Shown one piece after another: positions 5,601-23,861 of a DNA stretch of 28,460 nucleotides (its first letter is position 1; each line of letters starts with the position of its first letter). Position numbers and translations under genes: made by a program. Under the pieces are notes generated by a model. The model saw only the letters and a program-made list of their open reading frames with translations, was not told the DNA's origin and did not search any database. Origin of the DNA: a virus; IMG/VR virus record IMGVR_UViG_3300042922_000247, positions 1 through 28,460 of that record, one strand, 5' to 3'.

Positions 5601-7006
5601 TGAGCAGACTGATAAAATACGATATACCCGAGCCGCGTGGACCGTTGCCGGGCATGCAGGAGCCGATCAGTATACGGCAATGGCAGGGGCTGAACAAATA
5701 CGATCCGTTTAACATTGCTGATGGCCAACTCACGGAAATGTCTAATATGTCCAATGATAATTACCCGGCTCTCTCTGTGAGGGCTGGGTATTCTGTTTTA
5801 GGGACGTTTGGCACTAAGGTGTTGGGGTTGATGGTCTGGAAGGGTACGCAGCTACACGCAATTTTCAATAGTGGAGAGTGGAAACGCTGGAACGGCAGCA
5901 GCTGGGATACGCTGGCATCCGGTCTGAACACTTCGGCACGCTGGCATTGGACGAACTATCAAGGGAATCTGTCCGACATCAACCTGATTGCCTCAAATGG
6001 CGTTGATCCAGTCAAACGATACGATGGCAGCACTGTCCAGAACCTCACAGGAGCGCCTTCAGGAGGTAACTTCATCACTACCTATAGCAACCGTCTGTGG
6101 CTTGGTGTAGGCAAGGAATTACACGCCTGTGCGCTGGATCAGCCGGAGGAATGGAGTCTATTTGAAGGAACGGACCAGGATAGTTATGTGAAGGATATGG
6201 AATCAACGGCCGGGGAAAACATCAATATGCTTTCAGGCGGGTTATATCGATTAACCATCGGCATGCCATCATCTGTACACCTACTGTTCGGCAATGTGCC
6301 TTCAGATTTCAATACCCGTAAGGTCACGGAAGACGAGGGTGTGGCAAATAATAGCTCTGTGGTCACCCAGGAAGGCACTATGCGGTTCATGCACACAAAC
6401 GGGATATATGAGTACACCGCATCTGCTAACCCGGACAAGGACTTCAGCGAGATTATAAAGCCATACTACAACGATATTAATGCAGACAGTGTAGCCGGTA
6501 CAGACGGAGAGAAACTATATTTCACTCTTGGCACCGGCCGGACGCTGGTATATGACAATTACCTATCTTCGTGGTCGATGATGGACATCCCCCGCCCGGA
6601 GCAATACGCCTTGATTGGTAAGCAGCTGTACATCGGTGACACAACTGGACGTGTGTTGAAGATGAAAGACACCTCAGCGGACGCAGGAGCGCCTGTGAGC
6701 TGGTATTTCATCACCAAGCCATTTACCAACCCGATAATGTCACGGAGGCAGCGGTGGATTAAGATGTGGCTCTATGCGGAGATTCCGGTAGGAACTACGG
6801 TCAACGTCTACCTGTCTACCACCAAAGACGGCAACGACTTCAATCTGGTGCATACTGCGGTTGGTACAGGATCTGGTGTGCAGCGTATCATCATCCCAGT
6901 ACGTAGTGTAGTGCTGGAGAACACGGTCAGAGTTAAGATATCCGGCACCGGACCGGCTAAAATCCACGAGTTGGTACGCCAAGTGCGGCAGCTCTCGCTA
7001 TTCTAA
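5600..7006 (+). CDS. Tail nozzle / tail tubular protein B-like beta-propeller
   Basis: A 468-aa protein starting at ATG 5600, overlapping the previous stop (TAATG); an in-frame ATG at 5558 lies inside the upstream gene and is rejected. The chain shows repeated propeller-type blades: GLMVWKGTQLHAIFNSGEWKRW and NLIASNGVDPVKRYDG, followed by TTYSNRLWLGVGKELHACAL, then MRFMHTNGIYEY and YALIGKQLYIGDTTGRVLKM. Such proteins form the hexameric nozzle that closes the short tail and through which DNA leaves (T7 gp12, P22 gp10 role). The C-terminus is beta-rich. Length is short compared with T7 gp12 (about 790 aa) but similar to P22 gp10. Confidence 0.7.
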   Translation: MSRLIKYDIPEPRGPLPGMQEPISIRQWQGLNKYDPFNIADGQLTEMSNMSNDNYPALSVRAGYSVLGTFGTKVLGLMVWKGTQLHAIFNSGEWKRWNGSSWDTLASGLNTSARWHWTNYQGNLSDINLIASNGVDPVKRYDGSTVQNLTGAPSGGNFITTYSNRLWLGVGKELHACALDQPEEWSLFEGTDQDSYVKDMESTAGENINMLSGGLYRLTIGMPSSVHLLFGNVPSDFNTRKVTEDEGVANNSSVVTQEGTMRFMHTNGIYEYTASANPDKDFSEIIKPYYNDINADSVAGTDGEKLYFTLGTGRTLVYDNYLSSWSMMDIPRPEQYALIGKQLYIGDTTGRVLKMKDTSADAGAPVSWYFITKPFTNPIMSRRQRWIKMWLYAEIPVGTTVNVYLSTTKDGNDFNLVHTAVGTGSGVQRIIIPVRSVVLENTVRVKISGTGPAKIHELVRQVRQLSLF

Positions 7007-7017
7007 GGAGGTATATC

Positions 7018-7713
7018 ATGGGCTTATGGGACACAGCACCATCATTCAACAACCCGCCGACATTCAATGACTTGGAGGACGTAAAGAAATACCTTAAGGA
7101 CAACATCAACAAGATCGCGCGGAGCTTACAGGACATCGACTTCATCATCAATGGAACTTTGAATGTGGACAATATCAAGGCAAACGGCATAGAGACCAAG
7201 AACCTAAAGGCCGGGGCTGTAACTGCGGAAAAGATCACGGTATCCGAGCTATCCGCCATCAGCGCGGACCTGGGTAAGATCACGGCCGGTGAAATATTCG
7301 GAGCCTATATAGCCAGTAGAGAGGCGGCATACCCCCGTGCAGAGTTGAAGAGTTCAGGGGATGTGTTCGCGGCGTTCTACGATGCTGATAACTACATTGC
7401 GGTTGAATCGGATTATTTCGGTGTTCCATCGCTAAACTTTTTCCAAGGCGGAACGCAAAAAGGAAGATTGGACACAATATCGAGTCTATTAGAGATCGTT
7501 GGCTTGGGCGGACTCATATTATTCGCTTCTGGCGGAGATCTTCAATTAGATGCAACTGGAGTCGTAAAGGTTCAGAGTTGGGATAAATTTTATAACTCTG
7601 CAACTAATCGGACACTTCAGCAGGATCTAGATGATATCGATAGCAACTTCGCTGCTCTAGCATCTTTGTATGATAGCCTCGATGCCAGAGTAACCGCACT
7701 GGAAACCCCTTAA
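7018..7713 (+). CDS. Short tail fibre protein
   Basis: A 231-aa protein with ribosome site AAGGAGG. The N-terminal helix (EDVKKYLKDNINKIARSLQDIDFI) leads into a repeat region common in Gram-positive phage fibres: NVDNIKANGIETKNL, KAGAVTAEKITVSEL, SAISADLGKITAGEIFG (residues about 48-100). A beta-rich domain follows, then a C-terminal coiled coil (TLQQDLDDIDSNFAAL, LYDSLDARVTALETP) that probably trimerises the fibre. Ten bases separate it from the nozzle, so it is likely attached there. Receptor binding is inferred from the repeat type. Confidence 0.65.
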   Translation: MGLWDTAPSFNNPPTFNDLEDVKKYLKDNINKIARSLQDIDFIINGTLNVDNIKANGIETKNLKAGAVTAEKITVSELSAISADLGKITAGEIFGAYIASREAAYPRAELKSSGDVFAAFYDADNYIAVESDYFGVPSLNFFQGGTQKGRLDTISSLLEIVGLGGLILFASGGDLQLDATGVVKVQSWDKFYNSATNRTLQQDLDDIDSNFAALASLYDSLDARVTALETP

Positions 7714-8592: not shown

Positions 8593-8598
8593 TAAAGC

Positions 8599-8639
8599 AA
8601 AAAGACCTTACTCCTAAGAGCAGGGTCTTTTTGTTTTTC
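8599..8639 (+). terminator. Strong terminator closing the tail-gene segment
   Basis: AAAAAGACC (8599-8607) pairs with GGTCTTTTT (8624-8632), followed by GTTTTT. It marks the left edge of the AT-rich regulatory island. Confidence 0.85.
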
Positions 8640-8743
8640 TTGTGGGTGCTTCCCAAAAAAAGAAACACAACGCCATCGATAAGGGTGGTCTATTCCCATT
8701 TCCATAATATCACATAATCCTCCGGTGTTGAGAGTCCTTTTTG

Positions 8744-9208
8744 TTATGGTGTCATTTCTTTGTACTCGTTAATTAGTTCAACCGGGACATAGGGGATTTC
8801 TTGTAATTGAGAGATTATTTCCGTTCTAATCTCATAAAATCTCTGTTTATTATATTCTAGATGCTCGGAATTTTTGATGATAAAGTCAGAGCTGGATTTT
8901 ATGTTTTCAATCTTTGATGAGTACTCTTGTATTAACTCTTCTATTCTTAACATGCTACTTTTCATAACCTCAATATACTCAGTATCCTTACTTAATTTTT
9001 TATCAAAATGGGTAATTCCAAGCAAAAAATCAGAGCTTTCATCAAGCGCTTTACTGATTAATACCAATTTTTCCAAACTCGGTTCCCGTTGTCCATTTTC
9101 AACTTTGCCAAATCCTTGAGGAGACATATCAACAAGTTCAGCTGCTTCTCTTTGGGTTAAACCACGCTTCTCACGAAGCCATTTTACACGCGCAGAAAAA
9201 ATATCCAA
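8744..9208 (-). CDS. XRE-family repressor of the embedded island
   Basis: A 154-aa protein starting at TTG 9208, chosen because AGGAG lies about eight bases upstream; the in-frame GTG at 9217 overlaps that site. Residues 5-60 are a helix-turn-helix of the XRE/CI type (RVKWLREKRGLTQREAAELV, PQGFGKVENGQREPSLEKL). The remainder is long, charged and helical (IKSSSDFIIKNSEHL), likely for dimerisation; there is no S24 peptidase domain. It is divergent from the Cro-like gene at 9305 across a region with a dyad operator, the classic lysogeny-switch layout. It is AT-rich relative to the virion genes on both sides. Confidence 0.8.
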   Translation of the reverse strand: MDIFSARVKWLREKRGLTQREAAELVDMSPQGFGKVENGQREPSLEKLVLISKALDESSDFLLGITHFDKKLSKDTEYIEVMKSSMLRIEELIQEYSSKIENIKSSSDFIIKNSEHLEYNKQRFYEIRTEIISQLQEIPYVPVELINEYKEMTP

Positions 9209-9264
9209 AAAAATCACTCCTGTGTCTTTACATAGAAACCAAAACGATATATTATTAACTCAAG

Positions 9265-9281
9265 GTATCCAACTAGGATAC
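9265..9281. promoter_or_regulatory. Dyad operator between divergent repressor and Cro-like genes
   Basis: GTATCC-AACTA-GGATAC is a perfect inverted repeat with 6-bp arms, placed between the two divergent XRE genes and just upstream of the AAGGAGG of the right-hand gene. The related element AAAAGGATACTT recurs at 9524-9535 after the Cro-like gene and at 10344-10355 inside the antirepressor gene. Operator function is inferred. Confidence 0.6.
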
Positions 9282-9304
9282 ATTATAAGGAGGTGGGAAA
9301 AGAA

Positions 9305-9520
9305 ATGGCTATGCCGAAAACTAAAATTGCTATGATTCGCAGACAAAAATTCCTTAGTCAAAAAGAAGTTGCCACTCACTTGAAAATGTCTGTTGTTAAC
9401 TACTCCAAGATTGAAAGAGGGGAGAGAAGGCTAACTGTGGATGTTGCAAAACAGCTTGTAGATATATTCAAACTAACCTACATTGATGAACTGTTAGATG
9501 ATAATCCTTTAGCAAGTTAG
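9305..9520 (+). CDS. Cro-like XRE regulator of the embedded island
   Basis: A 71-aa protein starting at ATG 9305, 11 bases after AAGGAGG; the in-frame GTG at 9293 lies in that site. Nearly the whole chain is an XRE helix-turn-helix: IAMIRRQKFLSQKEVATHL, MSVVNYSKIERGERRLTVD, AKQLVDIFKL. It is divergent from the repressor at 8744-9208 and probably binds the same dyad at 9265-9281. It likely plays the Cro part, or activates the two genes downstream. Confidence 0.75.
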   Translation: MAMPKTKIAMIRRQKFLSQKEVATHLKMSVVNYSKIERGERRLTVDVAKQLVDIFKLTYIDELLDDNPLAS

Positions 9521-9579
9521 CCTAAAAGGATACTTTTCATTCTACAGTTGTAAATTATTTTTTACAAGGGAGGATTCCG

Positions 9580-9963
9580 ATGATAGAAGCATTTACAACA
9601 TGGTACGAAAAACATAAAGCTACATTTGATATGGAAAACGAAATAATCGCTGACAAACTTTCACAAGGGATCAACGGCATCGAATGGCTTGTCTTACAGA
9701 CGGAAGTAAACAATCGCAACTCAGAAAAACTCAAGTATTGGTTGGAACTTATTAGCGATATTGAGGGAAAGAATGCTGAGGATGTAATGAAAGATGCGTT
9801 GCAAATGAACCATGAAGAATTCTACAAGAAACACGAACTAAATTGGTGGATAAGTGTTAAAGATACACTGACATACCTAAGACTTATGAAAGAAAGAAAG
9901 TATGATCGTTATTTTATGTTCATCCAAAAATTAAATATTAGGGAGAATGAATATGACAATTAA
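9580..9963 (+). CDS. Unknown protein in the embedded regulatory island
   Basis: A 127-aa protein with ribosome site GGGAGG, 59 bases after the Cro-like gene and overlapping the antirepressor by 11 bases. It is acidic, helical and Trp/Tyr-rich (MIEAFTTWYEKHKATF, NGIEWLVLQTEVNNR, ELNWWISVKDTLTYL), with no membrane segment or metal-binding motif. Its position between a Cro-like protein and an ORF6C antirepressor suggests a role in the switch, superinfection exclusion or toxicity to other phages; none of these is shown by the sequence. Family not recognised. Confidence 0.6.
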   Translation: MIEAFTTWYEKHKATFDMENEIIADKLSQGINGIEWLVLQTEVNNRNSEKLKYWLELISDIEGKNAEDVMKDALQMNHEEFYKKHELNWWISVKDTLTYLRLMKERKYDRYFMFIQKLNIRENEYDN

Positions 9964-10711
9964 AAGTGATGTTCTAGTTGAAAGTAAATCAATGCGTGAA
10001 TCGGTAATTGATAGAGAAGAAGTTCTAGAAAAGGTTAAAAAGTTAAGTTTTTTATCTGACAACAGTAGTTTGACCATCGAGATGGCTGCAAATTATTACG
10101 AAGTAGAAAAATCAGTTATCGAGATGACAATCACCCGGAATAGAGACGAGCTTGTAACTGATGGTTTGACTGTACTTAGAGGCAGTGAACTTACCAAATA
10201 CAAGTTGGAGAGTGTTATTCCTAAAAATACTCCTTCATTAACGATAATGACGAAAAGAGCATTGCTCAGAATAGGAATGATACTACAAGAAAGCGATGTG
10301 GCAAAAAGTGTGAGATCGTATTTATTAGACTCTGAACAAGATAAAAAGGATACTTCAATAAACTCATTAAGCCCACAATTGCAATTTCTAATTCAAATGG
10401 AGCAACGAACTAACGAATTGGAGAGCAAACAGGCAGAATTGAACCAAGCATTCACCCACCTTTCCTTGGTGGTGGACAATGAAGTCTGGATTACGGATCA
10501 CCAAAAGGCGGATATCAAACAAGCTGTACTTAGCCGCGTAGGACATTTAAAAAGCCAAGCAGTTGACGCCCACTTCCAAGGTGCATTCAGCGATCTAAAT
10601 AAATTCTTCAACGTACCTAAATACGATAAGATCAAACGCTCAGACTACGCTCAAGCGATGGAATTCGTAAAAGGATGGTTCCCTAAACGCAAAGAATCCA
10701 CTTCTCTCTAA
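9953..10711 (+). CDS. ORF6C-domain antirepressor-like protein
   Basis: A 252-aa protein starting at ATG 9953, seven bases after GGGAG; the in-frame ATG at 9947 is too close to that site. The first 120 residues are a DNA-binding-type helical region (SLTIEMAANYYEVEKSVIEM, TIMTKRALLRIGMILQES). Residues 145-190 are coiled coil, and the C-terminus matches the ORF6C domain: VWITDHQKADIKQAVLSRV, FSDLNKFFNVPKYDKI, AMEFVKGWFP. Such proteins act as antirepressors or regulators in Gram-positive phages. A similar C-terminal domain ends the antirepressor at 23238. Confidence 0.7.
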   Translation: MTIKSDVLVESKSMRESVIDREEVLEKVKKLSFLSDNSSLTIEMAANYYEVEKSVIEMTITRNRDELVTDGLTVLRGSELTKYKLESVIPKNTPSLTIMTKRALLRIGMILQESDVAKSVRSYLLDSEQDKKDTSINSLSPQLQFLIQMEQRTNELESKQAELNQAFTHLSLVVDNEVWITDHQKADIKQAVLSRVGHLKSQAVDAHFQGAFSDLNKFFNVPKYDKIKRSDYAQAMEFVKGWFPKRKESTSL

Positions 10712-10737
10712 ATCCCTGGCAGGAACAAGAAGTGGAT
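10696..10737. repeat. Long inverted repeat over the antirepressor stop codon
   Basis: ATCCACTTCT (10696-10705) is perfectly complementary to AGAAGTGGAT (10728-10737), with a 22-base loop that holds a smaller CCTG/CAGG hairpin. The stop codon at 10709-10711 lies in the loop. There is no U-tract. It may protect the 3' end of the mRNA or be a relic of insertion of the island. Confidence 0.5.
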
Positions 10738-10816
10738 CACATCGAGGGCAGCGCCCTTACACCCACATTGTAACATTACACCACGAACACGGCAATGCCC
10801 TCCACAAGGAGGAAGT

Positions 10817-10936
10817 ATGGAAAATAATCAATTTGTATTGACACCGGAAAGTATAATAGAGGTACTAGGCCCAATGTCTAAAAAAGATATTCAGGAGCTA
10901 ATGGATCGGTTTCGCAAAGGACTTATACATCAATAA
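10817..10936 (+). CDS. 39-aa small protein
   Basis: A short reading frame with a strong AAGGAGG ribosome site seven bases before ATG 10817. The product starts MENNQFVLTPESIIEVLG and continues with an amphipathic helix (SKKDIQELMDRFRKG). It stands alone between the island and two tandem terminators, so it ends the island transcript. It is too short for family assignment; it could be a small DNA- or protein-binding regulator. Confidence 0.55.
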   Translation: MENNQFVLTPESIIEVLGPMSKKDIQELMDRFRKGLIHQ

Positions 10937-10942
10937 TCATTC

Positions 10943-10976
10943 AAGGGTATTCCGCAAATTGCGGAGTGCCCTTTTT
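10943..10976 (+). terminator. First of two tandem terminators
   Basis: AAGGG (10943-10947) and CCCTT (10969-10973) enclose the inner stem TCCGC/GCGGA around AAATT, followed by TTTT. It marks the right edge of the regulatory island. Confidence 0.85.
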
Positions 10977-10992
10977 ATATACAAAAACTAAC

Positions 10993-11016
10993 AGGGACCC
11001 TCTGGGGTCCTTTTTG
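10993..11016 (+). terminator. Second of two tandem terminators
   Basis: GGACCC (10995-11000) pairs with GGGTCC (11005-11010) around TCTG, followed by TTTTT. It lies only about 20 bases after the first terminator and directly before the ribosome site of the ejection-protein gene. Confidence 0.8.
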
Positions 11017-11037: not shown

Positions 11038-12642
11038 ATGTCCAGCATATTCAACACGGACGCCTGGAAAAAGGCTGTGCAGACGTACAAATCCAAGTCT
11101 CCAACCCCGTCTGTACCTTCAACGCCGATTGGTGCGCTTGCGGGAGTGAGCCAACCTGCACCGCAGCCAACACCCGCCACACTTCCGCCAGCAGCAATAC
11201 AGGCCGCCAGCAACGTGAGGTCCGGTAAAATGTCTGTACCAACAGTCCCGGAATCCGCAAAGGTCGCAGCGCAGAAGATGGTAACCAGGACATCCCAGCA
11301 ACCTCGTACTGAGCAAGCACTGTCGGCACAGGCGGATCTCGTGAACACACCGTTCAGCTACGACCCTACCTCTGATCCGGCCTATCAAGCAGCACTACGG
11401 GCCGCACAGCAGACGCTTGAGGTAAACCAGAAGAATACAAACGCGCAGCTACGTGCTACGGGGCAGGGAAAATCCTCTTACTCCGAAACGGTAGCCAATC
11501 AGTTAGCGAATCAAAGTTCGGAGAACATCGCAAATAACGTATTACCGGTATACGCGCAGCAGGCCTACCAGCAGTACCAGGACAGCATCGGCAACCAGCG
11601 TAACCTGTACAGTGACTACAACCAGCAGGACTTCCAGAATCCGATTACAGAGTCCAGCGTAACCGGTAATTATATGCCTGCCGAAGCAACTGCAGCCTAC
11701 AAGCAACTAATAGCTAATAAGCAAGCCGCAGAGTCACCAACGATCACCCGGGATGAACGTGCAGCCATCAGCAGCGAAACGGACGCACTCCGGGCCACGC
11801 TGAAGCGTCTTGGCATTGATATCAGCGGACTGGGTGCAGATAAGACATCGGCACAGGCAGGGGCGGTTAATCCAGGTATTCGCACACTGGCCGGACAGAA
11901 CCAGGACTTGGCTGCAAGCAATCAGACGTTCAATCAGAAGCTTTCCACGCGGCAGCAGGACTTTAACGAAGGGATCACAATGGCTGATCTCACTGGATCT
12001 ATCAATGGTAAGGCAACCACGGCAGAGCAGCAGCGGCAACTCACAAATCTCTGGACCGTGGCTGAACAAACCGGAACAATACCAGATACATTGGCCGATC
12101 AATATGGCATCCCACGGGGAACACAGACTCAGTCAGCGAAACAACTCGCAGCTCAAATTGCGAATGATGTTCGTGGGCTCGACATATCACAGCAGAATGC
12201 AGACACATCACAAGCCAACGCAAGCAGCAGCATAACCGGTAACACGTTCAACCGATACCTTGATATCTGGAAGGCCACCGGAACCGCGCCATCCGGATTA
12301 GAGGCGTATGGTGTAGAGGCTGGATCTCCGTGGTACGAAGGTGCACAAAACATTAAAGAAGGCGGGTTAACTGTTAACCAAGTAATTGACAATGTTAAAT
12401 CTTTGTATCAGGAACCCATTACTAGGAAGGAAATAGATCCTTCCACTTTAAAAATGATAGAAACAGATACAGGCAAAACAAAGATAACTTCAGACCCGGC
12501 TCAAAGGAAAAAAATGTTCGACAATGTAGTCGATTCCGGTTTAGGCAATAACGAAACGCTTCAAGCCCTGAATTCACTCGGATTTACTAAAGCCGAAATC
12601 CAAAAGTTTTACGATGAAGGAATCCAATCATCGGGGGAGTGA
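11038..12642 (+). CDS. Q/A-rich internal virion (DNA ejection) protein
   Basis: A 534-aa protein starting at ATG 11038 after AAGGAGGG; an earlier in-frame ATG at 10966 lies in the terminator region. It has a Pro/Ala/Ser-rich N-terminus (TPSVPSTPIGALAGVSQP) and a long middle section dominated by Gln, Ala, Asn and Ser with helical character (AYQAALRAAQQTLEVNQKN, QANASSSITGN). Cys is absent. This is the composition of podoviral internal core or ejection proteins (P22 gp16/gp20, T7 gp14/gp15 roles), supported by its place directly before a lysozyme-like and a giant LPD38 protein. It is presumably packaged in the head and injected with the DNA. Confidence 0.65.
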   Translation: MSSIFNTDAWKKAVQTYKSKSPTPSVPSTPIGALAGVSQPAPQPTPATLPPAAIQAASNVRSGKMSVPTVPESAKVAAQKMVTRTSQQPRTEQALSAQADLVNTPFSYDPTSDPAYQAALRAAQQTLEVNQKNTNAQLRATGQGKSSYSETVANQLANQSSENIANNVLPVYAQQAYQQYQDSIGNQRNLYSDYNQQDFQNPITESSVTGNYMPAEATAAYKQLIANKQAAESPTITRDERAAISSETDALRATLKRLGIDISGLGADKTSAQAGAVNPGIRTLAGQNQDLAASNQTFNQKLSTRQQDFNEGITMADLTGSINGKATTAEQQRQLTNLWTVAEQTGTIPDTLADQYGIPRGTQTQSAKQLAAQIANDVRGLDISQQNADTSQANASSSITGNTFNRYLDIWKATGTAPSGLEAYGVEAGSPWYEGAQNIKEGGLTVNQVIDNVKSLYQEPITRKEIDPSTLKMIETDTGKTKITSDPAQRKKMFDNVVDSGLGNNETLQALNSLGFTKAEIQKFYDEGIQSSGE

Positions 12643-13071: not shown

Positions 13072-16000
13072 ATGACACTTGATTTCGAAGCACTACGCAA
13101 GAAACGCGGCGTGACCACTTCAGGAACAGGGGAATTTGATTTTGATGCATACCGCAATCGGAAAGTTACTGAAACGCCGGATGTTGAAAGAGTAACCGTT
13201 AACCCTATCTTGAAGAGTACGCTCAGTGGAGTGGGGATCGGTGAAAAGCCAATGGAATTCCCTACTTATAGCCGTGCTGTTACGCCGAAACCAGAACCGA
13301 AAAAAGAAGAAAAAAGCACACTGAGCAAAGTCCTGGATAACGTCAATGCATTTACGGACCGTGCAGCGAGCGCCACGACATTCGGCGGTACCGACCTTGT
13401 GGATCGATTGTTTGAGAAATTTGGACCTAAAGCATATAGTGACGAGCTTAAAGAAAAAAGAGAGCGTTCCGAAAACCTTGGAGCAGCTGGGGCCGCAGCA
13501 GATGTGCTCGGCTCTCTGGTAAGTGGGCAGGCGGCATACAAGGCGGCAGGTGCGGCAGTAGATCCTTTAATCAAAACGTTACCTAAATTGACACAAAGTT
13601 TGATACGTGGAGGCGCTGCCGGTGCGGCGTTTGAATTTCCGCGGCAGGCTAATCAAGAAGCTGCGGAGTACCTGGGTGGAGCGCAGCAGAGTGTCCCGCA
13701 GCGCCTTAAAAATGTGGGCTTATCGGCGGCTCTTGGCGGTCTCACTGATTTAGGTATTGGCGCAGGCGGTCTCGCTGCATCTGGGATCAAGAACCCTGTG
13801 CTTGGTAAAGCGGTGGGCGGCGGTATCGGCGTAGGTAGCTTGGGCGCTGCACTGGGACTTGCAAATGAAGTCCAAGAAAAGGCGTCAGGACAACAACAAT
13901 CTTTTGGTGGCAGGCTGGCGGATATCGGAAAGTACACATTGGCCGGGGCTGGATTAGGGATTGCTGGAGGTACAGCGGCAGCTACATTTATGCGTAACAA
14001 AGGTGTTCCGGAAGAAACGATTGCTGAAGTTCTCGCGCTACCAGAAGGACGCGGAACGATCCGTCAATCGGCTGCAGCTGAACGTGCCAGCGTACCGGCC
14101 GGAACTGATCCAATCATTAACCCATCTGACTTTACTCCGGAACCTCTGGGATTGCCGCAAGGTAACACTGTGGGGCCGACTGTGGCGCGCCGGGCAACGC
14201 AGACGAATGTTTATCGGCAGAAGTTTGAGAACCTCATAAGAGAGGCACAGAAGCGTGAATTCAGCCCGGGACGCGAGGACATCGAGCTTGAAAACCTATG
14301 GTCTCAGATGGCTGAACGCAACGATCCGGGCTTAGATGAACTGGTAGATCTGGCCTATCCGAAGCGCACCAATGTGCCACAACGAGGTATGGTTGGCGCG
14401 GCCAGGTCAAATCAGGAAATGCGTGAAGTGGCAGGAGTGGGCAATCCAGTCCGGAGCAGTGCCGACCGTAACCCTTCACAGGTGATCAGCCCGGCCGCGG
14501 CACCACAGACAGTTGCCGGACGCGCCGGAGGTACACCGCGAGCTGAAATATCTAGTATTCCGGATGTTCCTGTTTCTTCAGCACCGAGACAGCCCGTCCA
14601 GGAAAATGTTCCAACCCAAGCCATGAGCCGGGAACAGGACATCATGAATCGTATTAACAATTTGACACAGGATGATATTGAATACATCCAAAGTGGCCAG
14701 TTTGATCAGACGAAGTTACCTCCGGAAGTCTCGTCTATCAGCAGACAGGAGCCAGCGGTAAGAGAACAAACTCCACTTGTAGATGCTGCTCCGGATGTAA
14801 ATGCTCAACCGCAGAGCCAGGACATGTTCACGGATCTGTTCGGCGATCAGGGGTTAGGCATTTCATCCGGAGGAAGCTCAGCAAGAGTCGGTTCCGGACC
14901 GGTAGACACCGCAGATCAGATTGTCCGGCGCGGTATCAAGAACGACAAGCAAGGCATAAAGCAGGCGGCGGCAGCACAGGCTCGGGCGACCTATCAGAAC
15001 CTTGTCGATAACCTTGATCCATTAAAACGGATCAGCGGTGACACATATGAGTCTGCTATGGATGCCACCCGGGCCAATAACCTTGCAAATACTGTTGTTC
15101 GTGACAAATTCGTGAATCTTGAAGGCGAAGTGATCGGCAACAGTTTGAACGATATCTTTAAAAAAGTGGCGCGGGGACAGGATAAGAACTTTATTGATTA
15201 CCTCACGCTGCGACATGCAAAAACGCGCATGGCCCGGGGAGAACGGGTGTATGCAGAAAACCTTGATATGACTCCGGATAAGGTGCAGCAGCGCATCGAC
15301 ACATTAAACTCCCGTTACCCTGGATTCGAAGAGATCGCGAAGGAATGGGATAAATTCAATGATAACGTGCTGCGGGAGATCGGCGTAAAGGAAGGGTTGC
15401 TCTCGAATGAACTGTACAATGCGCTGCGGAAGAAGAATCCGAATTACTCCCCAATGCGCCGGCAGTTCCTTCGTTCAGAAAAGCCCGGAAAGAACTTCAT
15501 CCAGAAGACAACAAAATCATCATTCAGCGGTCAGAAAGCACCAATTCAGCAAGTCAGTCCTACCGGGTCCGTCCGGAACATCGTAGACCCGCGCAAATCC
15601 ACCATTGAGTCCGTGGGCGCATGGACTAATGCAGCCCTACGTAACCGGACGATGCAGTCTATGGTAGATGCGATCAAGCGAGATCCGGAGGCATTCAAAG
15701 GTGTCGCTGAGATCATCCAGCAGCCGAAGAGTAAGGTGAATCTCAAGGATGTACTCACCAATGGTGGTCAGGACGACTTCTTAGAAGCGCTGGATGCAGA
15801 CTTTAAGGACCTGTTCAGCACCGCAAAGGTAGACGGTGATAATGTAGTTCGAGCAATGGTCAACGGGGAACCGGTACACATCAAGGTACAGGATCCGGAG
15901 ATTGTCAAAACGCTAATCGGCATGGGTCCACAGGCTTCCAACATCCTTATTGACACCATGTCTGCATTTTCTAACGCGACCAAGCGCGGTGCAACCGGTC

Positions 16001-17523
16001 TGCTGGCCCCGGCTTTTGCCATCAAGGGAGCGACAATGGACCTTGCACAGTCTGCTATTCAGTCCAAAAACCCACCGAAGCAGATTGCATACACAATTTA
16101 TTCCATCTTCAGCGGTATAGGTGATTCGCTGGGCATTAAAGGACTACGGAATTGGGCGCAGGAGTACCGCCGTGCTGGTGGTGGATACACAGCATCGCTA
16201 AAAGGGGATCGGCGCTTAGACACGGGAATATCCGATATGACACGATACCCAAAATTGTCACCACAGAATGCAGTTAAAATTGGAGTAAAGGCCGTAAAAG
16301 CACCATTCAAAATACTCGAAGGAATAGGTAATATCGCTGAAAATGCACCGCGTATTGCTGCATCGAAAATAGAACGGCAGAGCCTCGGTAACCAGATCAC
16401 GCCGCAGAATATCAGGCAGGCCATGAGCGCCGGGCGTGAAATTACTGTTAACTTCAGCCGGAAGGGTGCACTGACCCGGGATATTGAAGCATTCGTGCCT
16501 TACAACAATGCTGCAGTTCAGGGAACGTATCGTGTGCTACGTGCATTTAAGAATAATCCCGTCCGGACTGTGGCCGCAATCGGCACGCTAGCGGTACTTC
16601 CGAAGCTTTATGAATATTCCAAATTCGGTGATGATCCGGACTATCAGAATCTACCGGCCCGAGACCGTACGCGGTTCCTAATCGTCAAGAAGAACGATGA
16701 TGGTACATTTGTCCGGATCCCAATGGAGCCAGCCTACAACAGCTTTGGGGAGGCGACTATTGAAGCCTTAAGGTATTTCAAGGACAATGACCCAACGGCC
16801 TTCAAGGGAACAATGGACGCTTTGGCGAATGCCTGGACACCTCCACTTGTGACTGGTGCGCTGCAAGGAGCAACTAAGGGTGGCGGAGCAGAGGGAAGTA
16901 TTGCTGGGGTGGTCAATTCAACAGTAGCCGCACCGTTTGTCGCCTCTGTAGCAAACCAAAGTTTCACCGGTGCTCCTATCGTATCTCAGTCTCTCCAGGA
17001 CCGCAGCAGACCGTATCAGTATGATGAACGCACCAGTGCTGTAGCGAAGAAGTTAGGACAGACGCTGGATATGTCGCCTCAGAAGGTAGATTACATTATT
17101 AAGGCGTACGGTGGAGACTTGGCCCGATTGGTTTTACCATTGACTTCCGATCTTGGACAGGGCAACGTCCGAAACACGCTGCTGAAGAACTTCATTGTAG
17201 ATCCGGAATTCAGCAACACCTTGACGGATGACTTCTACGATGCCAAGGACAAACTGAATCAGGCATACGCTGATTTCAACGAGGCCGGGGCAGAATTACC
17301 TAAGTGGTATGATGATGACCTGAGAAAGGCGCTTAATTCGACTGCGAAAGGATCGGTATCGAAGGAGCTTGCCGGACTGCGCGATTACAAGAAAGAAATC
17401 ACCGCTGATAAATCACTGACAGACAAGCAGCGCACCGAGAAACTCCGGGAGGTTCAGAAGCAGATCAACGAAATCTACATCAACATCAACTCTGCGCTGA
17501 AAGAGTATGGGGTAATAAAATGA
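13072..17523 (+). CDS. Giant ejection protein with LPD38 domain
   Basis: A 1483-aa protein with AGGAGGTGA upstream. Residues 1-110 are charged and disordered. Residues about 135-305 are Gly/Ala-rich helices with glycine-zipper spacing (GQAAYKAAGAAVD, GGIGVGSLGAALGLA, GAGLGIAGGTAAATFM) that could insert in a membrane. Residues 330-620 are Pro/Gln-rich linker. Residues 640-950 are a charged helical domain, and about 960-1290 match the large polyvalent protein domain LPD38: REITVNFSRKGAL, then AFVPYNNAAVQGTYRVLRAF, NLPARDRTRFLI. It is comparable in size to T7 gp16. It likely enters the host with the DNA and builds the conduit through the envelope. No separate protease or nuclease motif was recognised. 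Confidence 0.75.
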   Translation: MTLDFEALRKKRGVTTSGTGEFDFDAYRNRKVTETPDVERVTVNPILKSTLSGVGIGEKPMEFPTYSRAVTPKPEPKKEEKSTLSKVLDNVNAFTDRAASATTFGGTDLVDRLFEKFGPKAYSDELKEKRERSENLGAAGAAADVLGSLVSGQAAYKAAGAAVDPLIKTLPKLTQSLIRGGAAGAAFEFPRQANQEAAEYLGGAQQSVPQRLKNVGLSAALGGLTDLGIGAGGLAASGIKNPVLGKAVGGGIGVGSLGAALGLANEVQEKASGQQQSFGGRLADIGKYTLAGAGLGIAGGTAAATFMRNKGVPEETIAEVLALPEGRGTIRQSAAAERASVPAGTDPIINPSDFTPEPLGLPQGNTVGPTVARRATQTNVYRQKFENLIREAQKREFSPGREDIELENLWSQMAERNDPGLDELVDLAYPKRTNVPQRGMVGAARSNQEMREVAGVGNPVRSSADRNPSQVISPAAAPQTVAGRAGGTPRAEISSIPDVPVSSAPRQPVQENVPTQAMSREQDIMNRINNLTQDDIEYIQSGQFDQTKLPPEVSSISRQEPAVREQTPLVDAAPDVNAQPQSQDMFTDLFGDQGLGISSGGSSARVGSGPVDTADQIVRRGIKNDKQGIKQAAAAQARATYQNLVDNLDPLKRISGDTYESAMDATRANNLANTVVRDKFVNLEGEVIGNSLNDIFKKVARGQDKNFIDYLTLRHAKTRMARGERVYAENLDMTPDKVQQRIDTLNSRYPGFEEIAKEWDKFNDNVLREIGVKEGLLSNELYNALRKKNPNYSPMRRQFLRSEKPGKNFIQKTTKSSFSGQKAPIQQVSPTGSVRNIVDPRKSTIESVGAWTNAALRNRTMQSMVDAIKRDPEAFKGVAEIIQQPKSKVNLKDVLTNGGQDDFLEALDADFKDLFSTAKVDGDNVVRAMVNGEPVHIKVQDPEIVKTLIGMGPQASNILIDTMSAFSNATKRGATGLLAPAFAIKGATMDLAQSAIQSKNPPKQIAYTIYSIFSGIGDSLGIKGLRNWAQEYRRAGGGYTASLKGDRRLDTGISDMTRYPKLSPQNAVKIGVKAVKAPFKILEGIGNIAENAPRIAASKIERQSLGNQITPQNIRQAMSAGREITVNFSRKGALTRDIEAFVPYNNAAVQGTYRVLRAFKNNPVRTVAAIGTLAVLPKLYEYSKFGDDPDYQNLPARDRTRFLIVKKNDDGTFVRIPMEPAYNSFGEATIEALRYFKDNDPTAFKGTMDALANAWTPPLVTGALQGATKGGGAEGSIAGVVNSTVAAPFVASVANQSFTGAPIVSQSLQDRSRPYQYDERTSAVAKKLGQTLDMSPQKVDYIIKAYGGDLARLVLPLTSDLGQGNVRNTLLKNFIVDPEFSNTLTDDFYDAKDKLNQAYADFNEAGAELPKWYDDDLRKALNSTAKGSVSKELAGLRDYKKEITADKSLTDKQRTEKLREVQKQINEIYININSALKEYGVIK

Positions 17524-19196: not shown

Positions 19197-19209
19197 ACTG
19201 TGGATAAAA

Positions 19210-19230
19210 GAACTTACGTTCGCATATAAT
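19210..19230 (+). promoter_or_regulatory. LexA (SOS) box overlapping a promoter -10
   Basis: GAACTTACGTTC (19210-19221) fits the Bacillus LexA half-site pair GAAC-N4-GTTC; read on the minus strand it is CGAACGTAAGTTCT, 12 of 14 positions of the consensus CGAACRNRYGTTYC. A perfect TATAAT follows at 19225-19230, 18 bases before the start of the 135-aa gene. LexA bound here would block transcription until DNA damage. No clear -35 was seen. Confidence 0.65.
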
Positions 19231-19715: not shown

Positions 19716-19769
19716 ATCGTGTGCGAATTGATATCTATGGAAAACCGTACATAACAATCTACACACGAT
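19716..19769. other. Putative attP of the serine integrase
   Basis: A 54-bp imperfect dyad with 19 of 27 positions matching between half-sites. The outer arms are ATCGTGTG (19716-19723) and CACACGAT (19762-19769); inside come ATTG/CAAT, TAT/ATA, TA/TA and GG/CC at matching distances. The centre is AA at 19742-19743, a non-palindromic dinucleotide as required for directional exchange by large serine integrases. The site directly abuts, and by one base overlaps, the integrase stop codon. Size, symmetry and place all fit; recombination itself is not shown. Confidence 0.7.
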
Positions 19770-21253
19770 TAATTGAAAATAACACTCTGAATAGACGCCG
19801 GAATGAACTTTCCTTTCTTGCCATGTGCTTTATCGAGTGGTGTGTATAACGTGATTTCCTTGAAGATATCCAGGATCATTTCATGCTTATCTACATCATC
19901 CATCTGGTCCCATACTTCAGGCAGGCCGAATAAGATTTCATTCTGCTCTGCAAAATCCTCTATGTGCACATCCGGCATTTTAGCGAGCTCATCCATCAGC
20001 AATTCCTCATTCTGCTTTTCATCGGCGTTGTGATCCCGCAGTTCCTCTTGGGAGATCAAATCATCGGCATACATACGCTGCCACTTCTTGCGCCGGTCCC
20101 GGACCTTATCTAGCTCTCTTACCAGATCCTTGCGCAGATCAACCACCGGATCTTCTTCAGCCGTTGCGGCCAATTCCCGGATCGCTGAATAATCTGTGGA
20201 TAACCTTTCGCCAATCCATTCCAGCAGCAGCGACTCCACCAACTCCTGGCGAAACATTGGCATGGTGCATCCTTTACCAGTCTGGCGCCCGGAGCAGATA
20301 TAAGACAGAATCTTATTGTAGCTGCCATCCTGGCGTTTGTTCTGGTGGTACCGGCCGGACATCTTCCCGCCGCACTTGCTGCACTTCAGCACACCGCTGA
20401 ACCAGTATTCCCGAACCTTAGAGTGTCCGGTGAATGATCGGCGCTTCATTTCCTCTTTGTGCTCCTGATACTCTTCCCAGGTAAAGGTTAAATCCTGTGT
20501 CCCATCCACGATCAGTACATCAACGTGCTCTTCCATTTTCCGATGTGCGTATTTCCCATTTGCTTTTTTAGTCCCGTATCTCCGTTTGCCTGCATAGTAA
20601 GGATTATCCAGTACATACCACACACTGAAGGAGGTCCACCGGTACCCGCGCCGCAGCAGGCCCATATCGTTCAGTTTGGTTGCCACGCCTTTTAGTCCCA
20701 AGCCCTCCAAGTAAAATTTCCTTACCAGCCGATTCTGCGTGTATTCCTCTTGTACAATCTTTTCAAATTTGTCATACCCGAAGTTAACCGGACCGCCCGG
20801 ACGCCGACCATCGTGGACCATCTGCTCCATGCCCATGCGTACGCGCTCTGCTGTGTTCTCACGCTCCCACTGAGCGATATCAGCCACTAGCCGGATAAAT
20901 AGTCTACCTGTCGCTGTGCGTGTCTCAAACGACTCCGTACAGCTCTGAAACTTGACGTTATGGGACTCGAACATCTTGATGAGGTTATCGCAGTCACTGG
21001 CGGACCGGGTCATACGGTCAAGCTTATACACCAACACCACATCAAATGCATGTATCTCCACATCTTTAATCATACGCTGCATCTCAGGGCGCTTCAGATC
21101 CTTTGCAGACCACCCATCATCTATGTACACCTCAGTGACTTCCCAGTCCTGAGAATCGGCGTAGGCCAGCAGCCGGCGCTTCTGTGCGTCAATCGAGAAT
21201 CCTTCAGCTGCTTGCTCGTCTGTAGATACCCTGATGTATATTCCTGCTTTCAC
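19769..21253 (-). CDS. Large serine recombinase (phage integrase)
   Basis: A 494-aa protein from GTG 21253, with AAGGAG upstream. Residues 1-150 are the resolvase catalytic domain with nucleophile Ser10 in YIRVSTDEQ and the supporting motif VLVYKLDRMTRS. Residues about 160-260 are the recombinase domain (GPVNFGYD, KGVATKLNDMG, YYAGKRRYGTK). A zinc ribbon follows (CSKCGGKMSG, then CSGRQTGKGC at about 300-335), and residues 370-425 are coiled coil. It joins attP to the bacterial attB with directionality; excision needs a separate factor, not identified. It is read toward the late genes and ends on the putative attP. Confidence 0.93.
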   Translation of the reverse strand: MKAGIYIRVSTDEQAAEGFSIDAQKRRLLAYADSQDWEVTEVYIDDGWSAKDLKRPEMQRMIKDVEIHAFDVVLVYKLDRMTRSASDCDNLIKMFESHNVKFQSCTESFETRTATGRLFIRLVADIAQWERENTAERVRMGMEQMVHDGRRPGGPVNFGYDKFEKIVQEEYTQNRLVRKFYLEGLGLKGVATKLNDMGLLRRGYRWTSFSVWYVLDNPYYAGKRRYGTKKANGKYAHRKMEEHVDVLIVDGTQDLTFTWEEYQEHKEEMKRRSFTGHSKVREYWFSGVLKCSKCGGKMSGRYHQNKRQDGSYNKILSYICSGRQTGKGCTMPMFRQELVESLLLEWIGERLSTDYSAIRELAATAEEDPVVDLRKDLVRELDKVRDRRKKWQRMYADDLISQEELRDHNADEKQNEELLMDELAKMPDVHIEDFAEQNEILFGLPEVWDQMDDVDKHEMILDIFKEITLYTPLDKAHGKKGKFIPASIQSVIFN

Positions 21254-21421: not shown

Positions 21422-21754
21422 ATGAAATTACTAACAGTTAAAATGCAGGACAGATTAGGCGATGACGAAGATTTTGTGGAGCTAGATGTTGACGATGTTG
21501 ATTACATTAACATTTGGTATCGCACTAAAAGTTCTACAGGAGTACCAGCGTTTCACACGGTTTACGGTTCTTTCATTTGTCTTTGCAATCTAACCGATTT
21601 AAGCAAGGCACTTAAGTCGTTTGGATTTGAGTCAGCGGATCAGTCAACGATCATAAATACAAAACGTGTCAAAGAAGTGAAGTCTGTTGACAATAACGGT
21701 TCAGTGATTAAATTCACCAGCGGTACCCAAGTAAAGATACGAAAGCAGATTTAA
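21422..21754 (+). CDS. LytTR-type DNA-binding regulator
   Basis: A 110-aa protein with AGGAGGG upstream. The chain follows the LytTR pattern: a start for strand one (DVDYINIWYRTK), then FHTVYGSFICLCNLTDLSKA, a helix (LSKALKSFGFESAD), the S-x-IINT core (QSTIINTKRVKEV) and the final hairpin (SVIKFTSGTQVKIRKQ). LytTR domains normally sit on response regulators (AgrA, LytR) and bind direct repeats; here there is no receiver domain, so activity would depend on expression level or on a ligand. It is divergent from the integrase, which it may control. Confidence 0.65.
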   Translation: MKLLTVKMQDRLGDDEDFVELDVDDVDYINIWYRTKSSTGVPAFHTVYGSFICLCNLTDLSKALKSFGFESADQSTIINTKRVKEVKSVDNNGSVIKFTSGTQVKIRKQI

Positions 21755-21967: not shown

Positions 21968-22180
21968 CTACTGTTCATAAAAGTCATAGAGATCATCAAT
22001 GTAGCAGCCCAATTTCATGGATATTGTCTTTGCTGTACCTAAAGACATCACCTTCCGATTATTAGCGTAATCAGATATTTGGGCCTTAGGCATACCCAAT
22101 TCCACAGCCAGCCATTGTTGATTTTGTCTAATCTCTCTAAGTCTTTTTTTCAGTAGGCAACGACCAGGTACATAACCCAT
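21968..22180 (-). CDS. Small XRE-family regulator
   Basis: A 70-aa protein with AGGTGA upstream of its ATG. It is almost entirely a helix-turn-helix: LKKRLREIRQNQQWLAVELG, MPKAQISDYANNRKV, MSLGTAKTISMKLGCYIDDL. It is divergent from the 56-aa gene at 22293, and a LexA box lies between them 35 bases upstream of its start, so either gene could be damage-controlled. Its position beside the main immunity switch suggests a second-tier regulator. Confidence 0.75.
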   Translation of the reverse strand: MGYVPGRCLLKKRLREIRQNQQWLAVELGMPKAQISDYANNRKVMSLGTAKTISMKLGCYIDDLYDFYEQ

Positions 22181-22214
22181 GTCGATGTCACCTATATTTT
22201 TTTATTTAAAATAA

Positions 22215-22252
22215 GAACATACGTTTTGTTTGCCCCAGTGATGTGGTAATAT
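22215..22252. promoter_or_regulatory. LexA (SOS) box with adjacent promoter
   Basis: GAACATACGTTT (22215-22226) matches every position of the Bacillus core GAACRNRYGTTY. Directly beside it are TTTTGT (22224-22229) and, 17 bases on, TAATAT (22247-22252), a possible promoter for the 56-aa gene at 22293. The box also lies upstream of the minus-strand XRE gene. Confidence 0.55.
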
Positions 22253-22292: not shown

Positions 22293-22463
22293 ATGCAAAA
22301 GGTAAAGGTGGACATAACAAGACAAACGTTGGAAGAGTTAGGAGTACGGACAAGCTGTATATTGCAAGGTATTGAGTCTATGAGCCCCTTGGACATGAAG
22401 CCTGAGTACATTAAAGCTTATCTTCTTTTGCGCCTTGAACCGCAGGAACTTGTTTCTTCATAG
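22293..22463 (+). CDS. 56-aa protein, candidate SOS-induced small regulator
   Basis: A short frame from ATG 22293, with a modest AAGGGG 11 bases upstream. The product has a charged start (MQKVKVDITRQTLEELGVR), a single Cys, and a C-terminal helix (MKPEYIKAYLLLRLEPQEL). It lies just downstream of a LexA box and runs 53 bases into the 3' end of the CI-like repressor gene on the opposite strand. Its transcript would be antisense to the repressor mRNA tail. An anti-repressor role, by protein or antisense, is inference. Confidence 0.5.
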   Translation: MQKVKVDITRQTLEELGVRTSCILQGIESMSPLDMKPEYIKAYLLLRLEPQELVSS

Positions 22464-22839
22464 ACCGTTCAGCCCGGACCAATGCAATAAATCTTCTTAC
22501 ATCGTCATCTTCCAACTTTATCCCATCTACGATAAAGTCCATTTTGGCCATGATCTCTTCATCAGTGAGATCTAAGGAGTCAATTAAAACCCGGGATGGT
22601 TCCGACAAGACCTGTTCTGGGTTATCCGTTCTTCCTAATAGATAATCCATTGATACAGAGAAGTAATCAGCAATAAGTTCTAAACGTTCCCTTTTAGGTA
22701 GTTCTCCCCTTGTTTCATACCTCCTTAGTGATGAAGATGGAATGTCCAAAGCTTCAGCCAATTGATCTTGGGACAAGTTCTTTGTCTTTCTGAGTTCTTT
22801 TAACCTATGTTTGAACTCATTTTCCATATTTGACACCAT
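22411..22839 (-). CDS. CI-like main phage repressor
   Basis: A 142-aa protein starting at ATG 22839, nine bases after a perfect AAGGAGG; a longer in-frame TTG start at 22893 is rejected. Residues 5-65 are an XRE helix-turn-helix (FKHRLKELRKTKNLSQDQLA, IPSSSLRRYETRGELPKRE, DYFSVSMDYLLGR). The C-terminus (LTDEEIMAKMDFIVDGIKLE, RRFIALVRAERSMKKQ) is the short oligomerisation-type tail of ImmR/SinR-like repressors, without a LexA-like S24 peptidase. It is divergent from a Cro-like gene across an operator cluster and likely maintains lysogeny by binding GTTCA-N5-TGAAC. Confidence 0.85.
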   Translation of the reverse strand: MVSNMENEFKHRLKELRKTKNLSQDQLAEALDIPSSSLRRYETRGELPKRERLELIADYFSVSMDYLLGRTDNPEQVLSEPSRVLIDSLDLTDEEIMAKMDFIVDGIKLEDDDVRRFIALVRAERSMKKQVPAVQGAKEDKL

Positions 22840-22872
22840 CCTTTTATTCCTCCTTATATTGTAGTTTAAATT

Positions 22873-22902
22873 GTTCATAAAATAAACGTTCAAAAACTGA
22901 TC
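22873..22902. promoter_or_regulatory. Two abutting degenerate repressor operators
   Basis: GTTCATAAAATAAAC (22873-22887) and GTTCAAAAACTGATC (22888-22902) each match 9 of 10 arm positions of GTTCA-N5-TGAAC and lie back to back upstream of the repressor ribosome site. They are probably the autoregulatory operators of the repressor gene. Confidence 0.6.
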
Positions 22903-22911
22903 AAAAAGGTG

Positions 22912-22966
22912 TTGACATGTTCAGTAATTGAACTTATACTAAGGTCATGAAGTTCAGTAATTGAAC
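22912..22966 (+). promoter_or_regulatory. Main early promoter with two identical operators
   Basis: TTGACA (22912-22917), a 17-base spacer and TATACT (22935-22940) give a near-consensus sigma-A promoter. The spacer contains GTTCAGTAATTGAAC (22919-22933), and an identical 15-mer lies at 22952-22966, 33 bases away centre to centre, about three helical turns. Repressor bound at both would occlude polymerase. The promoter drives the Cro-like gene, the antirepressor and probably the early operon. Confidence 0.85.
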
Positions 22967-22985
22967 AGAAACGAGGTGAACAAAG

Positions 22986-23225
22986 TTGACTGAAAAAGAC
23001 CTTAAACCATTGCCGAATTTGATCAAAGCCAGAAATGAAATAGGATACACTCAAGAGCAGTTAGCCAAGAAATCAAAGGTTTCTCGTCCGTTATTGTGCA
23101 ACATTGAGCGCGGCTATGCTCTTCCATCGCTTCCAGTAGCATATAGGATTGCAAAAGTACTGAAGAAACCAATCGAGCATCTTTTTTTTAATGATAATGT
23201 TCAAAAATTGAACAAAACAGCCTAA
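22986..23225 (+). CDS. Cro-like XRE regulator
   Basis: A 79-aa protein starting at TTG 22986, after GAGGTG. Residues 9-65 form an XRE helix-turn-helix (NLIKARNEIGYTQEQLAKKS, VSRPLLCNIERGYALPS, AYRIAKVLKKPIEHLFF). It is divergent from the CI-like repressor and transcribed from the consensus early promoter, so it fits the Cro role of shutting off the repressor. A further perfect operator lies inside its 3' end. The antirepressor follows after 12 bases. Confidence 0.8.
   Translation: MTEKDLKPLPNLIKARNEIGYTQEQLAKKSKVSRPLLCNIERGYALPSLPVAYRIAKVLKKPIEHLFFNDNVQKLNKTA
23199..23213. promoter_or_regulatory. Intragenic repressor operator
   Basis: GTTCAAAAATTGAAC has arms identical to the two promoter operators and lies in the last codons of the Cro-like gene, about 250 bases downstream. 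It could support DNA looping between repressor oligomers or act as a roadblock before the antirepressor gene. Confidence 0.65.
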
Positions 23226-23237
23226 GGAGGAATATGT

Positions 23238-23861
23238 ATGAATCAACTAACTAAAATGTTCAACTATGAAGATGGACAGCAAGTAAGAACAATTTCTATT
23301 GATGGTCAACCGTGGTTTGTAGCTAAAGACGTTTGCAACATCCTCGGAGTTTCAAACATAACAGAAACGTTCAAAAGGCTTGATGAAGATGAGTTCAGTA
23401 CTACTGAAGTCGTTGATTCAATCGGAAGATCGCAAGAAGTGTACATCATCAATGAATACGGCCTTTATTCACTGGTAATGACCAGTAGGAAAAAGGAAGC
23501 TAAATCATTCAAACGTTGGGTGACACATGAGGTACTTCCTTCCATCAGAAGCAACGGTTTTTACATCAGCGATTCTGACGATAAACATCCTGAACTTCTC
23601 AAAAAGATCAATGAATTAGAAAACAAAATAGAGTCATTTGTAACACTTAACTCTTTTGAAGCAAGGAAGTTGCAGAAGGCCATTGCGAGAAGAGTTTACG
23701 ATTTCGGTTTAACACCTGAAAACAGACCGCTTGCTTTCGCAGAGCTACACAGAGAAATAAGAGACAGATTCGGCGTTGCAAGTTATAGAGATGTTGCGAA
23801 GTTGGATTTTGATAATGCAATAAATTATGTAAAAGCATGGATCCCAAGAAAAGCAGCGTGA
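23238..23861 (+). CDS. BRO-N / ORF6C phage antirepressor
   Basis: A 207-aa protein with TAAGGAGG upstream. Residues 1-110 are a BRO-N domain: VRTISIDGQPWFVAKDVCNI, then LGVSNITETFKRL, INEYGLYSLVMTSRKKEAK, FKRWVTHEVLPSIR. Residues 125-205 match the ORF6C C-terminal domain (EARKLQKAIARRVYDFG, FAELHREIRDRFGV, AINYVKAWIPRK). This domain pair is typical of antirepressors in Gram-positive temperate phages, which bind the repressor or compete at operators. Its C-terminus resembles that of the protein at 9953. Confidence 0.85.
   Translation: MNQLTKMFNYEDGQQVRTISIDGQPWFVAKDVCNILGVSNITETFKRLDEDEFSTTEVVDSIGRSQEVYIINEYGLYSLVMTSRKKEAKSFKRWVTHEVLPSIRSNGFYISDSDDKHPELLKKINELENKIESFVTLNSFEARKLQKAIARRVYDFGLTPENRPLAFAELHREIRDRFGVASYRDVAKLDFDNAINYVKAWIPRKAA

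Follow-up and report, generated by a model that had tools for sequence, protein, structure and literature searches.

Why should a temperate phage with a complete main lysogeny switch carry another among its virion genes? The question is raised by IMG/VR record IMGVR_UViG_3300042922_000247, a Paenibacillus-type temperate phage sequence of 28,460 bases (the whole stretch analysed, here called the window), in which a block at 8594–11012 contains every part of the complete second lysogeny-type switch named in the original prediction: a divergent repressor, a Cro-like gene, a dyad operator, a gene of no assigned function, an ORF6C antirepressor and a 39-amino-acid (aa) gene. We consider it probable that this block is an interchangeable secondary immunity region set within the late genes, from which terminators insulate it. 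At the level of sequence, this reading is suggested by the anatomy of the block, its presence or absence at the same site in relatives, its swapping between them, and the existence of two operator classes in one phage. The block is organized as follows (coordinates of the window).

8594–11012: the block (cassette region), between virion hub/stalk genes and an ejection-type gene
8594–8637, both directions: predicted left-boundary terminator (−22.0 kcal/mol, z −6, on the plus strand; −20.1 kcal/mol, z −5, on the minus strand)
8744–9217, minus: XRE-family repressor of 154–157 aa, likely start TTG 9208 (HTH_3, E 4.9e-15)
9227–9255, plus: predicted rightward promoter of the cro operon, TTTACA-17-TATTAT (consensus scan only)
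9265–9281, between repressor and cro: putative dyad operator GTATCCAACTAGGATAC, GTATCC-N5-GGATAC
9293–9520, plus: Cro-like repressor, likely start ATG 9305 (HTH_3, E 1.3e-9)
9517–9533, just 3′ of cro: second operator-like site, with a GGATAC half-site at 9528
9538–9576: conserved non-coding cro/effector junction TTGTAAATTATTTTTTACAAGGGAGG, also a weak leftward promoter-like sequence
9580–9963, plus: 127-aa gene of no assigned function (PHROG 26848, E 3.5e-42)
9947–10711, plus: ORF6C-domain antirepressor-family protein (ORF6C, E 4.9e-13; PHROG 373 anti-repressor, E 4.6e-17)
10943–10973, plus: cassette operon terminator (−22.9 kcal/mol, z −7.2)
10993–11012, plus: terminator/leader of the ejection gene, a backbone element (−12.8 kcal/mol)

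Each of the two divergent genes encodes an HTH_3 helix–turn–helix (HTH) domain and operator half-sites lie between them, which is the arrangement of a lysogeny switch. The repressor, which also matches a PHROG transcriptional regulator (E 1.4e-15) and has no S24 peptidase domain, belongs to a family whose profile matches ICEBs1 ImmR and 434 repressor chains in the PDB, and the window Cro has counterparts of 73–80% identity at the same place in relatives L062, L070 and L107. GTATCCAACTAGGATAC is the sole exact match in the whole window, with three matches at two mismatches or fewer against 0.65 expected. The dyad alone was rejected as proof of an operator, since its arm length is reached in 293 of 2000 shuffles of its own intergenic region (15%; not significant); the real evidence for the putative cassette operator is that GTATCC-type half-sites recur in L107, where the spacer differs, and almost unaltered in L070. 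The junction TTGTAAATTATTTTTTACAAGGGAGG is conserved at 91–95% identity over 39–47 nucleotides (nt) in L005 and L011, despite unrelated downstream genes, and is limited among viral contigs to these phages.

The strong terminators said to bound the block are there, at about −22 kcal/mol on each flank, and the left one has copies in L005, L011 and L016 (95–97% identity over 38–42 nt) and in L012 (89% over 55 nt). The terminator at 10993–11012 also occurs in the cassette-free relatives L002, L004 and L007, and was assigned to the leader of the ejection gene, which starts at 11038. On the left the neighbour is g7769, encoding a secreted stalk-like protein, followed in the window by an 87-aa gene. 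The predicted contrast in composition holds in part: the block is AT-rich (35.7% GC), but the giant gene, put at over 60% GC in a sampled 60 bases, has 51.4% overall and exceeds 60% in just 15% of its 60-mers. The other late genes have 48–51% GC. Since the main switch (38.0%) and the fibre region (39.9%) are nearly as AT-rich as the block, composition alone does not mark it as foreign, and AT-richness was rejected as proof of such an origin.

Relatives were gathered by alignment with the ejection gene (A1) among viral contigs and 396 Paenibacillaceae genomes, a search that superseded an earlier contig scan with the same alignment (one locus); their upstream regions were read, and the flanking genes and HTH proteins were then mapped in them. 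With the window's ejection gene as the anchor of the survey, cassette frequencies are valid for its lineage. The comparison of related phages called for by the original prediction showed 7 of 50 non-redundant prophages or contigs (the window included) to have a divergent HTH pair at exactly this site, flanked by the g7769 homologue and the ejection gene, and 43 to lack it; in most cassette-free relatives the gap between these genes is 0–1.4 kb, and in none does it hold an HTH pair. Two further cassettes, in L107 and L121, were found through their repressor/Cro proteins and left out of this frequency, which brings the total to nine (the window, L005, L011, L012, L016, L062, L070, L107 and L121), each with g7769 on one side and the ejection gene on the other; the late regions examined held no further pair of this kind. 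Placed on a tree of the hub proteins of 52 relatives, the nine cassettes correspond to eight changes (mean 8.4 with shuffled labels), so that cassette presence is scattered as if random. blastn of the whole region against 50,697 phage records gave no match, and thus no isolated close relative.

In particular, L005 (with a cassette) and L006 (without) share 97–98% DNA identity in the hub and ejection genes and 99.7% protein identity in the ejection genes, and yet differ by replacement of everything from g7018 up to the ejection leader. The block would thus not be needed for the late genes, and is not common to all relatives, the two properties that would have spoken against the prediction of a mobile, exchangeable module. 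A clean insertion at a target site was not supported, since the two phages differ across this longer stretch; exchange via recombination is indicated instead.

The cassettes themselves are diverse. Repressors are about 29–52% identical between cassettes and Cro proteins about 30–80%, the window's sharing about 80% with those of L107 and L070. A member of an antirepressor-associated family (ORF6C, Bro-N, KilAC or pRha) is encoded in each cassette; operators vary between cassettes, and the downstream genes are often unrelated:

window: 127-aa protein and ORF6C
L005 and L070: Bro-N
L062: Bro-N and KilAC; L121 likewise by similarity
L011: pRha; L016 and L107 pRha by similarity
L012: DUF3102 and ORF6C, as separate genes

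The L016 repressor differs in having an S24 peptidase domain, by which its cassette would be linked to DNA damage. The same repressor/Cro family forms the integrase-adjacent main switch in L104, and probably the main switch in L119. Homologues of the 127-aa gene lie in the primary immunity operons of Paenibacillus larvae phage Hayley and of L008; the N-terminal half of the window's antirepressor is 56% identical to a Hayley immunity-operon gene, so that homologues of both co-occur in that operon. Considering that both the repressor/Cro pair and the effectors have relatives in main switches and immunity operons, we suggest that the late cassettes are drawn from a common pool of lysogeny switches. 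In L106 (1104–5462, with no ejection gene) a window-like repressor/Cro/antirepressor set adjoins a second repressor/Cro pair.

The accessory site holds other cargo as well. L004 has two solitary CRISPR-repeat-like sequences (8890–8940 and 9185–9230; GTCGCTCCTAATTTAGGAGTGGGGATTGAAAT and GGTCACTCCCGCACAGGGAGTGTGGATTGAAAC), similar to type I-C repeats and possibly RNA anti-CRISPRs, and L006 has a looser one near 9770–9812. At L003:9596–9835 an Rfam BsrG match (57.6 bits; gathering threshold 55) with a small hydrophobic ORF marks a type I toxin–antitoxin locus, a closely similar ORF being present in L007. Beside the L107 cassette (6337–7702, minus strand) lie genes of 119, 192 and 147 aa, which gave no match to Pfam or PADLOC.

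Is the block really additional to a main switch? The late genes of the window run rightward from 66 to about 19,655, and beyond them lie the following.

19769–21253, minus: serine recombinase
22411–23861: main lysogeny switch, with repressor (minus), Cro (plus) and Bro-N/ORF6C antirepressor (plus)

The main operators GTTCAGTAATTGAAC (GTTCA-N5-TGAAC) are at 22919 and 22952, with weaker copies at 22873 and 22888 and a further operator near the end of cro, at 23199. The two switches are thus alike in operator layout and different in operator sequence, and no copy of the main operator was found in the cassette. A main switch is also present in the near-full-length cassette records G000, G400, G404 and G405; several relatives are contig fragments, and a main switch missing from such a record (e.g. 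G408, the record of L016) is uninformative. LexA-like boxes occur at 22210–22230 (GAACATACGTTT, 5′ of a 70-aa XRE gene at 21968–22180) and at 19205–19225 (GAACTTACGTTC, upstream of 19248), and L005 and L006 have GAACATAAGTTC ahead of the homologous XRE gene; the boxes by this gene suggest an SOS input to the main switch. A LexA-like box sought in the cassette was not found. Between the recombinase and the main repressor is a 110-aa LytTR-domain protein (21422–21754), with homologues at the same place in L008 and apparently in L106. Among the late genes, 13072–17523 encodes a 1483-aa protein with an LPD38 domain (E 5e-40, residues 1188–1363), whose middle part is strongly divergent among relatives.

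The right end of the cassette has a recurrent organization of its own.

10680–10761, minus: predicted leftward small RNA, 5′ GTAAGGGC..GCCCTC followed by a hairpin; same layout in 12 units at this site
10696–10737: predicted hairpin of the small RNA, with loop CTGGCAGG in the window and CTTGGCGG in most relatives
10744–10812, plus: leader of the small gene, with GAGGGCA, TGCCCTCC and Shine–Dalgarno GGAGG; alternative pairings possible
10767–10795, minus: predicted small-RNA promoter, TTGCCG-17-TACAAT, extended −10
10817–10936, plus: 39-aa gene

In nearly all cassettes this unit follows the effector gene and precedes the small last gene, and runs from the leftward promoter (extended −10 in 11 of the 12) through a leader-complementary stretch and the hairpin to, usually, a U-run or second terminator; in the window the small-RNA terminator is weak. 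The hairpin loop is asymmetric, CTTGGCGG or CCGCCAAG, and is flipped between relatives. Among the 396 Paenibacillaceae genomes, 2 contain the hairpin with the commonest arms, in both cases at this prophage site, and the hairpin's intergenic occurrences in viral contigs are these cassettes, the remainder being chance-like and in coding sequence. The small-RNA-like unit overlaps the leader of the small gene in the window, L005, L011, L012, L016, L062, L065, L070, L107 and L121; it is duplicated in L070 and L107, and in L065 is present without a repressor/Cro pair. Homologues of the 39-aa gene, of 52–56 aa (SIIxxLGPM-like), close most other cassettes. An anti-Shine–Dalgarno stretch in the leader is predicted to pair either with an upstream segment or with the Shine–Dalgarno sequence. 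The apparent target of the predicted small RNA is the small gene and not the antirepressor; a leftward promoter-like sequence is also present at the cro/effector junction. Rfam gave chance matches only in the cassette, far under the cut-off, and none in its right part at E up to 1; nor did the C4 antisense RNA model (immI of P1, P7 and N15) match the right part.

How might such a cassette work? We suggest that in the lysogen the divergent repressor (8744–9217) would occupy the GTATCC operators and keep the rightward operon off. Upon entry of the DNA into a repressor-free cell, or upon loss of repressor, Cro and antirepressor would be made; the antirepressor may then disable a CI-type repressor, either the phage's own main repressor or that of a resident prophage, and tilt the outcome to lysis or prophage induction, with Cro damping the burst. 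Related phages swap the cassette as a whole, and consequently differ in their second operator specificities and antirepressors.

Several observations weigh against a secondary immunity region. The cassette proteins are of the XRE, ORF6C, Bro-N, KilAC and pRha families and not of the Mnt, Arc and Ant families (Pfam found HTH_3 and ORF6C only, with no Arc/Mnt or P22 Ant domain match), the name ‘antirepressor’ for ORF6C, Bro-N and pRha proteins is mostly annotation, and the L012 effector operon, with DUF3102 and a separate ORF6C protein, is unusual. AlphaFold models (mean predicted local distance difference test score 41 for the ORF6C protein and 55 for the 127-aa protein) are too poor for use, and every functional step of the switch is one that we infer, including the choice of target repressor. 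One might regard the block as a neutral or transient mosaic insertion, a segment of another phage's main switch at a permissive site with no selected role, given that its repressor/Cro relatives serve as main switches elsewhere (L104 and probably L119) and that the site tolerates cargo as varied as a BsrG-type toxin–antitoxin. We hold this to be unlikely, considering that the divergent layout, with operators and an antirepressor-type gene, is retained whole in independent cassettes, as usually is the small RNA/small gene end, and that their frames are still open in proteins diverged to 30–40% identity.

The original prediction had also favoured an immunity or anti-phage module, perhaps acting on other phages that have the GTATCC operator. 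An immunity role as such is supported in part. Put as a dedicated device, in which a repressor (or the 127-aa or small protein) made in the lysogen blocks incoming phages and the antirepressor is secondary, this is in our judgement improbable. GTATCC operators do occur in other phages, the same site does receive varied accessory cargo, and in the P22-like phage BTP1 an antisense RNA encoded between the injection and tailspike genes confers superinfection immunity (PMC7067206). The operators found so far, however, lie on the antirepressor cassettes of L107 and L070, so that binding would silence those cassettes and not main lytic promoters; the effector genes are expected to be off in lysogens; and PADLOC found no known defence effector in the cassette, only generic HTH matches and one uncharacterised ‘candidate’ model that aligns to the N-terminal part of the antirepressor, an outcome that does not bear out a separate defence module. 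Very improbable, finally, is a local regulator that times the downstream ejection operon: the cassette immediately precedes the ejection gene, with which it shares a strand, but two terminators intervene and most relatives, including L006, do without it.

We therefore return to an interchangeable secondary immunity region. If this is true, phages trade entire immunity switches as accessory cargo, and natural pairs of the L005/L006 type would allow a direct test of what a second immunity region brings. A broader proposal, which we put forward tentatively and would not yet expect to hold, is that Gram-positive temperate phages use late cassettes as an interchangeable immunity currency, each cassette combining a second repressor specificity, an antirepressor against competing prophages and a new RNA-controlled small-protein end unit. 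A literature search, with most subscription papers outside it, turned up no description of a region of this type from a Gram-positive phage.

Among known systems, the TF-smORF (transcription factor–small open reading frame) modules of vibriophages and other phages inactivate CI, the transcription factor activating a divergent small protein (PMC10432266). They resemble the cassette as accessory regulatory modules outside the main switch with a small protein, and differ in that the operon under the cassette's repressor/Cro pair encodes a large antirepressor-type protein. The trans-acting antirepressors of the Gifsy phages (PMC3121763) are likewise encoded outside the immunity region and possibly comparable in targeting the repressors of other prophages, but are under LexA, for which no box turned up in the cassette. 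Gram-positive repressor/Cro/antirepressor modules such as that of Hayley share gene families and order with the cassette; there, however, the module is the only switch and is integrase-adjacent, whereas in the window it is an additional switch lying between virion genes.

The classical examples of multi-locus immunity are a few enterobacterial phages (P22, P1, P7 and N15), and the Mnt and Arc proteins of P22 are of the ribbon–helix–helix type. The closest parallel in layout is P22 immI (mnt-arc-ant and the sar RNA). Both lie in the late operon beside ejection/tail genes with insulated expression, both combine a divergent repressor, a small second repressor and an antirepressor, and both are highly variable and absent from some relatives. 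An antisense RNA also takes part in P22; in the cassettes a small RNA is predicted. As for an immI-type region, we find here an extra switch beside a complete main switch, a late-region site, and dispensability and variability in relatives. In P22, arc and ant are under silencing by Mnt, and the main repressor is bound by Ant (PMC11016777); the mode of action suggested above for the cassette is modelled on this. The cassettes use an XRE repressor and Cro instead of Mnt and Arc, and ORF6C, Bro-N, pRha or KilAC proteins instead of P22 Ant; the leader that their predicted small RNA overlaps is that of a separate small gene and not that of the antirepressor; and they belong to Paenibacillaceae phages. 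The likeness is therefore one of layout and place, not homology, and if the reading given here is true, a counterpart at the same place in Paenibacillaceae phages, built from unrelated proteins, would represent a convergent solution.

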